A stretch of DNA of 64,000 nucleotides, from NCBI GenBank assembly GCA_004299485.1, contig SCQP01000005.1, positions 1-64,000 of the forward strand. The letters run 5' to 3'. This DNA is from Acidobacteriota bacterium (GTDB taxonomy: Bacteria; Acidobacteriota; Terriglobia; Terriglobales; SCQP01). A program made the translations under genes and the position numbers. This document shows, piece after piece, positions 56,518-62,506 of this stretch (within the stretch, counting starts at the first letter, position 1; the number at the start of each line of letters is the position of its first letter). The notes under the pieces are model-generated. The model ran no database searches. It had not been told where the DNA came from and saw only the letters and a program-made list of their open reading frames with translations.

Positions 56518-56988
56518 TTAGCGCCGCTTGCGCGCGGCCGATTTCTTGCGCGAGGGCTTGCGCGCCGGCTTGCGCGCCGCACTGCGCTTGGCGGCCGATT
56601 TCCGGGCAGGCTTTTTCGCGGCGGCTTTTTTCGCCGGCCGGGAGGCCTTTTTCGCTGCCGCTTTTTTGGCGGCCGGCCTTGCGGCTTTCTTCTTCGCTGC
56701 AGGCCGCGCGGGCTTTTTCGCGGCGGCTTTTTTCGCCGGCTTCCGCGCCGGCTTCTTCGCCGGCTTCTTCGCCACCGGCTTGCGCGCTGCGGGCGCCGCC
56801 GCTGCGGGCGCCGCCGGCACCGGCACGACCGGCTCGGCGGTGGTCTCGGCAATCACCGCAAACGTGTCGAGCTCATCGCCCTCGTCATCATCGAAGCCGC
56901 TGAGCCGATCATCGCCGAAGCCAAACGGATCGTCGGGATCGCTCGCTGCCGCACACCGGAAATAAAGAGATTCCTGATCGCCTCTCAT
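56518..56988 (-). CDS. Histone H1-like KPA/AKK-repeat protein
   Basis: A 156-aa protein with an acidic N-terminal half (DPDDPFGFGDDRLSGFDDDEG) and a Lys/Arg/Ala/Pro repeat region (AKKPAKKPARKPAKKAAAKK onward, residues about 70-156). The tail resembles eukaryotic H1 and bacterial Hc1/AlgP-like DNA-binding proteins. It likely binds DNA. Shares its composition with the 20-residue peptide at 25287. Confidence 0.85.
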   Translation of the reverse strand: MRGDQESLYFRCAAASDPDDPFGFGDDRLSGFDDDEGDELDTFAVIAETTAEPVVPVPAAPAAAAPAARKPVAKKPAKKPARKPAKKAAAKKPARPAAKKKAARPAAKKAAAKKASRPAKKAAAKKPARKSAAKRSAARKPARKPSRKKSAARKRR

Positions 56989-57187: not shown

Positions 57188-58924
57188 TCATCGGCGGGTT
57201 GAAAACTGCCGCCGCTGCACCCGGTGGGGAAGCGCCAAAGGCGTGCCGGGAGGGGGCGCCTCGGCGCCGCTCAAATGGTTGGCCTGCTGCAAAAGCGGAG
57301 CACTGATCCGGTATTTGTGGGCCAACTCCCGCCACGTCTCGCCGCGCCGGACCCAATGCAGCCGCCAGTACACCCGATCCGGTGCGGGCACCGCCGCCAT
57401 GCCATTTTCGTAAAGTTTCTTAGTGCCACTTGGAATTTTCAGGGTATAACCCTTGGGCACCAGGTAGTGTAGCAGCGCCGGGTTCAGGCGTTGCAAATCT
57501 GCCACAGTCACAGCCGCGCATTCCGCAGCCAGGCGCAAGTCCTCGTTGCTGGTAATTGTCACCTCATCGGGGCTGAGCGCCGGGTCTGGATCGGGATCGG
57601 TTATGCCATAACCGCTGGGATTTTGGGCGATGAGCGCGATGGCCAGAATCACCGGCACGTAGTTGCGCCAACTGCGCGGCAGGGCGCCCATATCGTACAG
57701 CTTGAAGTAATTGGCATAGCCGGTGCGGGCAACGATGCGTTCGATGGTGATCTCGCCGGTGTTGTAGGCGGCCATGGCAAGGTACCAGTTGCCGAACAGG
57801 GTGTAGAGCGACTTGAGATGCTCGGCAGCAGCCCGCGTGGCCATTTCCGGATCGAGCCGTTCGTCCACCCAGTGACTGCGCTTCAGGCCATAGCCTTCAC
57901 CCGTCAGCGCCAGGAATTGCCACATGCCGCGCGCGCCCGCCCGCGACGTTTCCCGCGGGTTAAAGCCGCTCTCCAGTTGTGCCAGGTAAATCAGGTCGGT
58001 AGGAATGCCTTCTTCTGTAAAAATCCGGTCGACCATGGCGCGGTAACGGCCGGCACGGCGAAAGCCCTGCAACAGGTCGCCACGGCCGCGCGTGGTGAAG
58101 TAGTGCACATAGCGCAGGACGGCATCGTTGACGGTCAGCGGCAACTGGCCGCGCCGCTGCCGCGCCAGGGCGACGCGCGCTTTGGCCTCCAGCCGCGCTT
58201 TCGTCTCCGGATCGAGCGGAAAGGTGAGCTGCAGAATCTTCTGCATCGCGCTCTGCGGCGACGCCTGAGAGAAGCCGCCGGCAGGCAGAGCGTCGCTCTC
58301 GAGCGCCTGAATGCGGTCGAGCAGCGAGGTCAACTCGGTGTGGAGTTGTGGCGTGGACGCAATATCGTAGGGGCTCGCCAGCAAGTGGTCCAACGCCGTA
58401 TCAAAGCCCTGACGCGCCTCATCGAGCTGGCCCTCGCGGTACAACTGCAGCGCCGCCTGGTACTGCTGCTCGACGGCAGCCACCAGCGCGCGGACGTCAT
58501 CGTCATCCTGCGGCGCTGGGACCGGCGCGGCACTGATGACCTTAGGGGGCGTGGCGATGGCCGGCGACGGACGAGCGGGCGTCAGCACCTGGGCGGCGGG
58601 CGCCGGGGTGACCGGTGCACTAGCGCTCGGCGCGGGCGGTGCGGGCTTGGGCGTACGCACGTGACAGCCGAGTCCGCCGCCCACCAGCACGATCAAACCC
58701 AGCAATGCCCAGACGCGGGGGCGGCGCCGTTGGCACTTTCGGCTAGGTCGGCGCGGGAGGTCGAGAAATTCACGCAGCGGCGACCCGCCCCCGGCAAGCA
58801 ACGAGGCACCGGCCCGGCCGGGCTGGGGCTCCCGGGGCCCCCAGCCCGGCCGAGCGTCAAGCGGGTGGCGTGGCGCAGCCACGCCAGGCCCCGCGCCAGT
58901 CAAAGTATTCCCGCATGCTCGCAT
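57188..58924 (-). CDS. MltD-like lytic transglycosylase with LysM domain
   Basis: A 578-aa membrane-anchored enzyme. Helix VWALLGLIVLVGGGLGC ends in a lipobox-like GGLGC; the SLT domain has IYLAQLESGFNPRETSRAGA (catalytic Glu) and GMWQFLALTGEGYGL, LAMAAYNTGE. A LysM region (WVRRGETWRELAHKYRISA) closes it. It cuts peptidoglycan without water. Start ATG 58924 or TTG 58939; about 75 residues before the helix are read through the GC-rich repeat. Confidence 0.9.
   Translation of the reverse strand: MRACGNTLTGAGPGVAAPRHPLDARPGWGPREPQPGRAGASLLAGGGSPLREFLDLPRRPSRKCQRRRPRVWALLGLIVLVGGGLGCHVRTPKPAPPAPSASAPVTPAPAAQVLTPARPSPAIATPPKVISAAPVPAPQDDDDVRALVAAVEQQYQAALQLYREGQLDEARQGFDTALDHLLASPYDIASTPQLHTELTSLLDRIQALESDALPAGGFSQASPQSAMQKILQLTFPLDPETKARLEAKARVALARQRRGQLPLTVNDAVLRYVHYFTTRGRGDLLQGFRRAGRYRAMVDRIFTEEGIPTDLIYLAQLESGFNPRETSRAGARGMWQFLALTGEGYGLKRSHWVDERLDPEMATRAAAEHLKSLYTLFGNWYLAMAAYNTGEITIERIVARTGYANYFKLYDMGALPRSWRNYVPVILAIALIAQNPSGYGITDPDPDPALSPDEVTITSNEDLRLAAECAAVTVADLQRLNPALLHYLVPKGYTLKIPSGTKKLYENGMAAVPAPDRVYWRLHWVRRGETWRELAHKYRISAPLLQQANHLSGAEAPPPGTPLALPHRVQRRQFSTRR
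58859..58898 (+). repeat. GC-rich palindromic interspersed repeat, copy B, inside the mltD N-terminus
   Basis: AAGCGGGTGGCGTGGCGCAG then CCACGCCAGGCCCCGCGCCA, with a longer left part (58825-58858) shared with copy A in nadD. It lies on the antisense strand of the mltD 5' region. Confidence 0.75.
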
Positions 58925-58935
58925 CGACGCTCGGC

Positions 58936-60000
58936 TCAAGCCCTCTGCGGCAGTATGGCAGAGTGGCCCGGGGCCGTGCGCGGTGGCGCCGTCAGGCGGG
59001 CAGCGGCGCGCCGGCCCGGCTCCTGATCGAGCGGGCGGCGCAGCAGGGGTGGCAGACAGGGCATGCGCCGCACGGCGGTCTGCGCCGCATCGAGCGATGC
59101 GAGCACTTCCGTTTCGCTGCGCTGCGTCAACTGCGCCAGCTCTTTCGGCCGGAAGCCCTCGAGCAGATACAAGACCAGATCATGCCGCTGCTGGCGTGGC
59201 AGGGGCCGAATGGCATCCACCAGGCGCTTGAGGCTCTCGGTGGCGTAGGCATTTTCTTCCGGATCGGCCTGGGCCGCCGCCAAGTGGTCCTCGAGCCGCT
59301 CCGACTCCGCAATATCGTCCCCGTCCAGCGATAGCTCGCTCGCGGTTTCCTCGAGTGAAAGCAGGGTTTGGCCGTGGCGCGTTTCGCCATAGGCTTTGGT
59401 CAGGCTGCGGATCGCAGCCGCACTTAGCAGCAAGAGCCAACGGCCGCGGTGCAGCTCCTGCTCCACCGGGCGGGCGTCCAGCGCCGCCACCACGACTTCA
59501 TTCAATACTTCGGCGGGATCGAGCCAGCCGCGCGGCAGCTCGCCCAAACTCTCCCGTAGGTTAATCTGGCGCTTCACGAAAGCCAGCAGATGTTCGTAGT
59601 GGCCGCCAAAATAGGCAGCCAAATCCGCTTGCCGTTCCGCTGCTGCTTTCGGTGCCGCCAGGTAACTGCCGCGGTGGAGCGGGATGCGGAAGCGCGGCCG
59701 GGTTTCCCGCAACCGCTGTTTGTGCCGGTTCAACTGTCGGACCAGATCATCACTGGCCGTACGCAAGGCCACTTGCGCGCTGGCGGACGTGTTCTCGCTG
59801 CTCAACTGGCCGGTGGGCAGATGCAGATTGAGCCGGCAGGAAACGCCCTCGCGGCTGGTGTGCCGCACCAGCCGCCCCTGCAATTGCACCAATTCCGGCT
59901 GAAAGACCAGCAACAGCGGCTCCAGCTTGTGCTGAAAGCGCTCCATGATGCGATGGAGTTCGGGCGAATGGGGCACTTGCAAGGTGATGTGAAGGTTCAT
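58936..60000 (-). CDS. HPF/RaiA-like domain fused to sigma-70-like regions 2 and 4
   Basis: A 354-aa protein starting MNLHITLQVPHSPELHRIME at the ATG at 60000 (GGAGGCAG upstream). Residues 1-100 form an S30AE (ribosome hibernation) domain: LHLPTGQLSSENTSASAQVA, then DLVRQLNRHKQRLRE. Residues 125-205 resemble sigma region 2 (YFGGHYEHLLAFVKRQINLR, GWLDPAEVLNEVVVAALDA). Residues 255-312 resemble region 4 (PLPRQQRHDLVLYLLEGFRP, ELAQLTQRSETEVLASLDAA). HPF domains bind the 30S subunit; a sigma domain in the same chain implies a link between ribosome inactivation and transcription. It is between DUF697-like and mltD genes, overlapping or close to both. Confidence 0.82.
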   Translation of the reverse strand: MNLHITLQVPHSPELHRIMERFQHKLEPLLLVFQPELVQLQGRLVRHTSREGVSCRLNLHLPTGQLSSENTSASAQVALRTASDDLVRQLNRHKQRLRETRPRFRIPLHRGSYLAAPKAAAERQADLAAYFGGHYEHLLAFVKRQINLRESLGELPRGWLDPAEVLNEVVVAALDARPVEQELHRGRWLLLLSAAAIRSLTKAYGETRHGQTLLSLEETASELSLDGDDIAESERLEDHLAAAQADPEENAYATESLKRLVDAIRPLPRQQRHDLVLYLLEGFRPKELAQLTQRSETEVLASLDAAQTAVRRMPCLPPLLRRPLDQEPGRRAAARLTAPPRTAPGHSAILPQRA

Positions 60001-60017
60001 ACTGCCTCCTCCTGTTC

Positions 60018-60827
60018 TTACGCAATTTGACGCTCGACCGGAGCTGGCTGGGTGCGCAGGAATTTTCGGCGCGGCTGGAACGCCGCACCGCGCGCTGGCG
60101 CCTGATAGCGCCACAAGGCAGCGCCGACGGCAAGCGAACCCGAATAGGCAATACCGGACTTGGCGGCCAGGCCATAGCCGGCAGGGATCAGACCCACGAG
60201 TTCGCGTGCCAGGGTTCGCCATCCGAGGGCGCCGGCCAGCACCAGGCCGACGCGGCCGGATTGTGCCCGCCAGCCTATGGGCTCATCGTGCAAGGCCGCC
60301 AGCTCAAACGCCAGGCCAACCTGATTGGCGGTAATGAGCACCGTGTCGGAACCCATCTCGCCCAGGGCCAGAACGAGGCTGAGCGGATTGGGAACGACTT
60401 CGGGCAGGGCGCTGATGGCGGCAATGGCGGCGTTGCGCGAGGCTAACGCCTGGATCAAATCGCGGGCCAGCAGGCGGCGCAGCGGCGCAAAAATTCGGCC
60501 CAGGGCCAGCCGATAGGGGGCGTACACGCGGAGCAACTCCCGCAGGCCGGCATCGGGGTCATGCGGATCGAGCACGACGCCGGCGCCGCTCGTTCCGGGG
60601 TCGCGGACCAGGATTTCAGCGGCCTCGCCGGGCGCGACAAGGTGCTCGCCGGCGCGCGTACGCTCGGGGCCGGTAATCTCGTCGGGAATAAGAATGCGGC
60701 ACAGGGCTTCGCGGCCGGCGTCATCGGCGGCGCGCACCTCCAGCCGGAAATGCCGGTGCGCCTGCTGGCGAATGCGCGATGGTTTCAACGAACGCGCCTG
60801 GTGTAGGCCCTGTTTCCATGCACCCAT
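60018..60827 (-). CDS. DUF697-like protein with Gly-rich C-terminal membrane segments
   Basis: A 269-aa protein: a basic N-terminus, central ISALPEVVPNPLSLVLALGE with LITANQVGLAFELAAL, and the DUF697-like end GLIPAGYGLAAKSGIAYSG followed by SLAVGAALWRY. Such domains occur in membrane-associated and GTPase-coupled proteins. No P-loop is seen. It precedes the HPF-sigma gene by 17 bp, so an operon is likely. Confidence 0.75.
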   Translation of the reverse strand: MGAWKQGLHQARSLKPSRIRQQAHRHFRLEVRAADDAGREALCRILIPDEITGPERTRAGEHLVAPGEAAEILVRDPGTSGAGVVLDPHDPDAGLRELLRVYAPYRLALGRIFAPLRRLLARDLIQALASRNAAIAAISALPEVVPNPLSLVLALGEMGSDTVLITANQVGLAFELAALHDEPIGWRAQSGRVGLVLAGALGWRTLARELVGLIPAGYGLAAKSGIAYSGSLAVGAALWRYQAPARGAAFQPRRKFLRTQPAPVERQIA

Positions 60828-60915: not shown

Positions 60916-61200
60916 ATGGCCACGGCCCGGTTTGAAGTGTATGGCCGCGTGCAGGGGGTAGGCTTTCGCTATTTCGCCCAGCGGCAAGCGCTCGCCCTCG
61001 AGGTGCGGGGGTGGGTGCGCAACCGGGATGATAGGACCGTGGAAGTGCATGCCGCTGGCAGCGCCAAAGCGCTGCAGGCCTTGGAAGACTACTTGCGTCA
61101 GGGGCCACCGGCGGCCTATGTCACCGGCGTCAGCCGGAGCGATTGGCCGCTGTCACCGGCGCAAGGGGCGGCTCTCGATGGCTTCAAGATTCTGGATTGA
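60916..61200 (+). CDS. acyP: Acylphosphatase
   Basis: A 94-aa protein hydrolysing acyl phosphates. FEVYGRVQGVGFRYFAQRQA is the Arg/Gly-containing active-site signature and GWVRNRDDRTVEVHAAG the second conserved strand. Length matches the family. Divergent from the DUF697-like gene. Confidence 0.95.
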   Translation: MATARFEVYGRVQGVGFRYFAQRQALALEVRGWVRNRDDRTVEVHAAGSAKALQALEDYLRQGPPAAYVTGVSRSDWPLSPAQGAALDGFKILD

Positions 61201-61223
61201 ACTGAAAAAGGAAAACCCCGCTT

Positions 61224-61769
61224 ATGGCCAGTGCGCCCGTACCCTCCCACGATGAACTGAAAGCCTATATCCGCGAAGTCCCGGACTTCCCCAAGCCGGG
61301 AATTCTGTTTTATGACATCACTACCTTGCTGAAGCAGGCGGAGCCGTTTGCGCGGCTGATCGATATTCTCGCGGCACATTATGCCAGCCAGAAGATCGAA
61401 CTGGTCGCCGGTATCGAGGCGCGCGGTTTCATTTTCGGCCCGGCGCTGGCCTACCGGCTGGGGGCGGGGTTTGTGCCCATCCGCAAACCGCGCAAGCTGC
61501 CGGCGGCGACGGCGTCGGTGGAATATAGCCTGGAGTACGGCACCGACCGGCTGGAAATCCACCAGGACGCGATCGCGCGCGGCCAGCGGGTGCTCATCGT
61601 CGACGACCTCATCGCTACGGGCGGCACCGCCGTCGCCAGCACGCAGCTCGTCGAAAAATTGGGCGGCAGCGTGGCGGGGCTGGCGTTCATCGTCGAGCTG
61701 ACGTTTCTGCATGGGCGCGACAAGCTCGCCGGCTACGACGTGCTCTCGCTGTTGCGCTACGACCAATGA
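61224..61769 (+). CDS. apt: Adenine phosphoribosyltransferase
   Basis: A 181-aa salvage enzyme joining adenine to [24 protein letters not shown] and [20 protein letters not shown] (PRPP-binding loop) are the signatures. Overlaps the methyltransferase by 4 nt. Confidence 0.96.
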
Positions 61770-62506
61770 AGGTAAGCGGTGAACGCCCGCTGGCCGGCCT
61801 GCACGCGGTAGAAGAGGCGCTGCGCGCGGGCACGCCCCTGCGCTACATCGCCGCCAGCCGCGAGCGGCACGATGCGCGGCTGGCGCAATTGCTCGCCGCA
61901 GCGCGCGCCGCCGGCGTGCCCGTGCGGCTGGAGCCGGCGGCGGCGCTCGACCGGCTGGCGCAGGGCGAACGGCATCAGGGGGTGGTGGCGCTGGCGGCAG
62001 CCAAGGCCACGCTGGCGCTGGAAGATTTGCTGGCGGACGCGCCGCAGAAGCTGCTGTTGGCCTGCGACGGCATTGAGGACCCGCACAATCTGGGCGCCAT
62101 TCTGCGCACTGCCTGCGGCGCGGGTGTGGACGGCGTGCTGCTGCCGGAGCGGCGCTCGGCGGGCCTGACCGCCGCGGTCGAACGCGTTTCCGCCGGCGCG
62201 CTCGAGCATGTGCGCGTGGCGCAAGTCACCAACCTGGCGCGCGCGCTGGAGGCGTGCAAGGCCGCCGGGTACTGGGTGGTCGGCCTGGAAGGCGAGGCTG
62301 CGGTCAGCCTGTGGCAGCACGATTTCCGCCCGCCGACGGTGCTGGTGGTCGGCGCCGAAGAGCGCGGCCTGCACTCGCTCACCCGCAAGCTCTGCGATGC
62401 CCGGCTGCGCATTCCCCTGGCTGCCGGCGTCGCGTCGCTCAACGCCAGCGTCGCCGCCGGCATCGCGCTGTTCGAGATTGTGCGCCAGCGGTCACTCGGA
62501 GCGTAA
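61766..62506 (+). CDS. rlmB: 23S rRNA ribose 2'-O-methyltransferase (RlmB/TrmH family)
   Basis: A 246-aa SPOUT enzyme: N-terminal recognition domain ([20 protein letters not shown]), then the knot with [37 protein letters not shown] and [20 protein letters not shown], binding AdoMet. RlmB modifies G2251; the exact site is not certain. The start overlaps apt. Confidence 0.9.

Follow-up and report, generated by a model that had tools for sequence, protein, structure and literature searches.

An S30AE ribosome-hibernation domain fused to a sigma-derived module that probably does not choose promoters, conserved in Acidobacteriota

The window, by which we mean the whole 64,000-nucleotide stretch of DNA analysed here, contains a single open reading frame (P0001; 58936..60000, minus strand) that encodes a protein of 354 amino acids and joins an S30AE (HPF/RaiA) domain to sequence resembling a sigma factor. 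The frame runs unbroken from an ATG at 60000 to a TGA at 58936, and a Shine-Dalgarno-like sequence, AGGAGGAGG (60005..60013, minus strand), lies a few bases 5' of the ATG, consistent with a strong ribosome-binding site. An earlier note, which stated no strand, had read this arrangement from the letters alone; its claim of both halves in one frame without a frameshift is borne out, profiles and predicted structure back both halves, and its domain limits (residues 1-100, 125-205 and 255-312) are correct to about 10 residues. A chance ORF, an artefactual fusion and a misassembly are ruled out by full-length, one-frame orthologues in relatives. Just upstream, on the same strand, lies an ORF of 269 residues without a Pfam match (60018..60827), a possible operon partner. 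The next gene downstream (57188..58939, minus strand), which overlaps the stop of the fusion gene, is lytic transglycosylase-like, with SLT and LysM domains that Pfam matched on its homologue L039; this neighbour is conserved only in the taxonomic family of the window genome (neighbour cluster 8, 9 loci).

The N-terminal half (residues 1-103; 59692..60000, minus strand) belongs to the S30AE proteins, which silence and protect ribosomes. PF02482 matches residues 24-98 at 24.4 bits against a curated cut-off of 23.7 (27.2 bits, likewise above the cut-off, in the genome search), so that the proposed S30AE domain holds up by HMM, and the same profile matches 18 of 19 relatives of the fusion protein. 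In the AlphaFold model this part has a pLDDT of about 87-97, and VIA-align against the PDB superimposes residues 1-102 on ribosome-bound RaiA (8rd8_D) at Z 14.6, with an rmsd of 1.7 over 98 residues; many further HPF structures match. Four residues near the end of the domain, Q89, H93, K94 and L97, are invariant in the family and lie in its last helix, and the half is basic, with a median pI of 10.2. The fold and the invariant end of the last helix are therefore common to the fusion and to HPF/RaiA/YfiA proteins. Canonical HPF, in contrast, has at its C terminus either nothing or the long-HPF domain, whereas the fusion has the sigma-like half there; indeed, a Pfam search of the C-terminal half found no match to the long-HPF dimerisation domain, and this half has a sigma fold.

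The C-terminal half is made up of a sigma region 2-like domain (residues 119-206; 59383..59646), an acidic, mostly disordered linker (residues 207-246; 59263..59382) delimited by pLDDT below 50 at 208-244, and a sigma region 4-like domain (residues 247-312; 59065..59262), all on the minus strand. TIGR02984 covers residues 151-300 at E 1.9e-9 and TIGR02937 (sigma70-ECF) matches at E 1.4e-7, both under the NCBI curated cut-offs; Pfam Sigma70_r4_2 is likewise under its cut-off, at 19.0 bits. Across the family, TIGR02937 matches 19 of 19 members and Sigma70_r4_2 matches 16 of 19, with a best E of 7e-11. A single-sequence phmmer search against the PDB returned no sigma match; a profile search did find one.

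The predicted structure agrees with the profiles. The sigma helices mostly have a pLDDT of 85-91, those of the region 2-like domain spanning residues 117-151, 162-175 and 185-206, and VIA-align places residues 121-322 on the ECF sigma factor RpoE (5uxx_C; Z 11.0, 154 residues aligned, rmsd 4.6). Because HPF structures dominated the matches when the whole model was searched, the C-terminal half was folded alone, from 42 relatives, and searched separately; it matches the same Bartonella RpoE chain at Z 11.6 (152 aligned, rmsd 4.2), and SigG1, SigW and CnrH at Z about 10. When the fusion and the ECF sigmas of its genome are aligned together, every helix of sigma2 and sigma4 is in register; the fusion has 10 extra residues within sigma2, and its linker is longer. 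The fusion thus has the sigma2, linker, sigma4 order of ECF (group 4) sigmas, and the sigma-like regions of the earlier note are upheld by the TIGR matches, albeit below curated cut-offs, and by the predicted sigma-like helices.

The two surfaces with which ECF sigmas contact DNA look very different in the fusion. The C-terminal half has an acidic pI throughout the clades (4.3-5.2; median 4.65 over 97 sequences), where the genome's own ECF sigmas have a median of 9.4. At the five DNA-facing positions of the recognition helix, the fusion family has 1.13 basic residues and the same-genome ECFs have 2.69, and the stretch after region 2.4 has a net charge of -2 in the family and +4 in the ECFs, in comparisons drawn on related, non-independent sequences whose p-values overstate the difference. 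In the window protein the recognition helix lacks the usual basic residues (ETEVLASLDAAQTAVR); in most Terriglobia members the ECF helix TVKSRLxRAR has become ExVRxSIxxAR, and in proteobacterial members the helix is without a conserved basic residue. Some members retain two or three. In region 2.2, the glutamine of the ECF LVQE motif, which is typical of core-binding sigmas, is D in 81% of members and N in 13%, including the window protein, while the glutamate is retained in 98%. Overall, the region 2.2 glutamates and the region 2.3 tryptophan are near-invariant and the fold residues are kept too. Both halves are under purifying selection, with a dN/dS of 0.07-0.29 for the C-terminal half; in the window's own genus this half evolves faster (0.25-0.29).

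Judging from sequence and model, then, the sigma half has apparently lost the surfaces that read -10 and -35 DNA. Because it is acidic and these basic residues are lost, the fusion protein probably does not select promoters as a sigma would. The earlier note had implied that it does, but this is not supported, given the acidity, the drop in recognition-helix basic residues (1.1 versus 2.7), the reversed charge after region 2.4 and the change of Q to D or N.

Unlike ECF sigmas, most clades have a conserved motif in the linker between the sigma domains, QPDExLxxEDL, with the fuller form [FYH][YWFH]QPD[ED]xLxxED[LVI] or a close version of it. A QPDE-type motif is found in 80 of 82 members from the neighbouring Terriglobales family, in 6/6 members from other Acidobacteriota classes and in all the members that we read from the heat-resistance island tLST, where the E. 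coli protein has QHDD in place of its relatives' QPDD. The family HMM puts the motif, gap-free, on the sigma finger of SigA, the primary sigma of the window's own genome (EEDSHLGDFIED...PSD), in a short match of 10.7 bits; this alignment is suggestive of a motif at the sigma-finger position in most clades. The window protein and its genus are without it and their family has a degenerate version only, and therefore a role for the motif cannot be claimed for the window protein.

Relatives were retrieved by an alignment-based scan of genome contigs, the peptide patterns made from the single protein being too specific and retrieving none; the wider group belongs to the Acidobacteriota, class Terriglobia. 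All but one of the 13 other genomes in its own family have the same fusion, at 39-62% identity, and the exception is a genome that is 82% complete; the fusion is also the sole S30AE protein in 7/7 near-complete genomes of that family. In the neighbouring Terriglobales family it occurs in a minority of genera, mostly alongside canonical HPF. Searched across the phylum, the C-terminal half alone brought up six members from other Acidobacteriota classes, which score 118-145 bits; plain ECF sigmas score 57 bits at most. All six start with an S30AE domain (that of L220 falls under the Pfam cut-off, and that of L218 was matched with the family's own profile), and a later search added further members in the phylum. 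These results show that the HPF-sigma fusion is an old, conserved family. In the window's genus, genome G002 apparently has two diverged copies, L005 and L030; this genome is 75% complete and could be mixed.

In a tree of S30AE domains, the whole family forms one clade (100/100 support), separate from the canonical HPF proteins found in the phylum. Its unfused sisters of 115-140 aa (L173-L184, from other Terriglobia families) fall in three separate places; most simply, their sequences represent losses of the sigma half, which would suggest that it is dispensable there, in a tree of 109 columns with several long branches that leave the order of events uncertain. A 'split' version of the fusion, with a separate sigma gene beside these unfused f7-type S30AE genes, was ruled out, as none of the L173-L184 loci has an adjoining sigma gene. 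Family f8 contains both the unfused L173 and a divergent fused member without the QPDE motif (L172 1501-2490).

The neighbourhood of the gene differs between clades. In the neighbouring Terriglobales family, a baeRF family 10 gene comes next after the fusion on the same strand, at a spacing of -13 to +85 nt, at 59 of the 66 loci with enough sequence. In Terriglobales this operon is also common to the fusion and HPF/RaiA/YfiA, and HPF-baeRF operons are on record (PMC6514570). The aeRF1-type hibernation factor Balon binds ribosomes jointly with RaiA, and genes for RaiA and for alternative sigma70 factors are reported to lie near its own (PMC10901736); we infer that some of these sigma70 neighbours may be the HPF-sigma fusion. 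Searches found no baeRF family 10 in the window or its family, where the SLT-LysM gene comes next, and no baeRF family 3 in the window's own genome. Around the pairs of fusion and baeRF genes (L042-L111), asparaginase_2, CofH-like radical SAM, M20 peptidase, GlpX and UbiA genes recur in several arrangements. Clustering of the fusion neighbourhoods revealed no conserved anti-sigma gene. In another Acidobacteriota family, an ORF directly downstream of the fusion (L257 4596-4997, minus strand) resembles by sequence a STAS anti-anti-sigma factor.

Full-length homologues also appeared in a tblastn search of plasmids, in Alpha- and Betaproteobacteria; the alphaproteobacterial distribution is known from plasmids. 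They are annotated as 'sigma-70 family', 'flagellar biosynthesis protein FliA' or 'sigma-28', and match both S30AE and sigma region 4, with some S30AE scores slightly under the cut-off. Their neighbours are genes for Hsp20, a ClpK-like AAA ATPase, FtsH, HdeD, thioredoxin, PsiE, or GroEL/DnaK. With an Agrobacterium member as query, 300 plasmid records matched, mostly from Klebsiella, Enterobacter, Acinetobacter and E. coli. On these plasmids the homologue sits between hdeD-GI and trx-GI, which by position makes it the tLST gene orf11, to which no function has been assigned (PMC8290217). In E. coli pEc78 this tLST/LHR orf11 (L247 12001-13146; also L249 and L250) is called a 'hypothetical protein' and is a divergent HPF-sigma member that neither Pfam nor NCBIfam matches. 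When gammaproteobacterial members are left out of the family profiles, it still scores 36.8 bits with that of the S30AE half and 100 bits with that of the sigma half, so that on sequence the link to the fusion family is good for the C-terminal half and moderate for the N-terminal half. Thus orf11 is homologous to the Acidobacteriota fusion in both halves and shares the QPDE-type motif, but it is very divergent and has another gene neighbourhood.

Taken together, these data make it likely that the protein acts in hibernation and that its sigma-derived module takes no part in promoter choice. The hibernation role is favoured by its standing as the sole S30AE protein in its own family, by the baeRF operon in the neighbouring one and by the homologues on heat-resistance islands. 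By analogy with HPF, the S30AE domain would bind the 30S decoding region under stress and shut the ribosome. The sigma part would have lost promoter selection and kept a role in protein docking, which is the weakest step of the model. As the full statement of this reading, we tentatively propose, at somewhat below even confidence, that the promoter-blind module docks on core RNA polymerase, with sigma2 on the beta' clamp, the linker at the place of the sigma finger and sigma4 on the beta flap; RNA polymerase would then be parked along with the hibernating ribosomes. What points to core RNA polymerase is that, with the DNA contacts lost, the order of the sigma parts, the glutamates of region 2.2 and a finger-like linker are all retained. 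Purifying selection on the C-terminal half, the region 2.3 tryptophan and the alignment of the motif with the SigA finger argue for docking; the missing QPDE motif in the window's family, the window protein included, the faster evolution of the half in its genus, the Q to D/N change in region 2.2, the shortness and low score of the SigA match and the unfused sisters argue against it. The direct coupling of ribosomes and transcription that the earlier note envisaged is still likely, but by way of a sigma-derived docking or decoy module and not of a promoter-choosing sigma.

Some of the same observations would fit a mimic like PhyR, in which a degenerate sigma2-sigma4 module is likewise attached to another regulatory domain. 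The C-terminal half would then bind an anti-sigma factor, and the ribosome-binding state of the protein would set the titration of this anti-sigma and thereby of a stress sigma. In the window protein PF22233 (PhyR_sigma-like) outscores Sigma70_r4_2, and PF22233 and PRK09191 (PhyR) each match 15 of 19 members; the best fold match is an ECF RpoE in its NepR-bound form, PhyR:NepR (2lfw) matches at Z 9.5, and one relative is followed by the STAS-like ORF at L257. But ECF profiles outscore PhyR profiles over the whole C-terminal half, the conserved neighbours of the fusion include no anti-sigma gene, and NepR is, to our knowledge, restricted to Alphaproteobacteria. The partner domain in PhyR is a receiver, of which a Pfam search found no match in the window protein, and in the fusion it is S30AE. 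We regard this mechanism as unlikely.

An explanation confined to the ribosome seems no more probable: the sigma-derived domains would stand in for the long-HPF C-terminal domain and bind protein or rRNA, for ribosome dimerisation or extra anchoring, with transcription uninvolved. The sole conserved partner with a known association, baeRF10, is ribosomal, the one S30AE protein of the window's family means that one factor must do the whole job, and unrelated extensions occur on other HPFs, such as the CBS module of HibA (PMC13324472). Against this, a module with a pI of about 4.6 would be a poor rRNA binder, and the kept sigma2-linker-sigma4 order and finger-like motif are left unexplained. Finally, the protein could be an active sigma tethered to the ribosome as its anti-sigma; once ribosomes run short or the protein comes free, its holoenzyme would transcribe a stress regulon. 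This could account for the significant matches of ECF profiles to both sigma regions, 2 and 4, the sigma-70 annotations and the members that keep two or three recognition-helix basic residues, but is very improbable, since the C-terminal half is acidic, every clade has lost basic residues in the two regions that would touch DNA, and the proteobacterial recognition helix has none that is conserved.

The preferred reading, a hibernation factor with a promoter-blind docking module, bears on a general problem, in that non-growing cells must silence ribosomes and RNA polymerase together. At its broadest, it would have one protein family physically tethering core RNA polymerase to ribosomes in hibernation, whereby transcription and translation would be shut down, stored and later released as one, in a system widespread in Acidobacteriota and travelling between Proteobacteria on heat-resistance islands as tLST orf11; in this sweeping form we consider it doubtful. 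If the link to RNA polymerase is true, it would be a new kind of system, and one chain would make the coupling of transcription and translation silencing directly testable. In E. coli, Rsd and RMF likewise silence transcription and translation together, but as two separate, unrelated, co-regulated proteins (PMC6904343). HPF fusions with regulatory modules already exist: in the archaeal HPF-CBS fusion HibA, the HPF domain and the module share one chain as here, but the module is a CBS part that contacts the large subunit, with no sigma part (PMC13324472). The S30AE-sigma combination is apparently undescribed. We found no description of it in open full-text papers, and within this scope the earlier note's statement that no such system had been described holds. 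For tLST orf11, which hundreds of plasmids carry, the fusion also offers a first hypothesis at the level of domains, and database entries called sigma-70, FliA or sigma-28 can be hibernation factors.

Further ORFs near the fusion gene were read by eye. On the opposite strand (60916-62506, plus strand) are acylphosphatase-like, adenine phosphoribosyltransferase-like and 23S rRNA methyltransferase RlmB-like ORFs, and on the minus strand an ORF at 56518-56988 has many K/A/P repeats and resembles the histone H1-type tails of bacterial nucleoid proteins.
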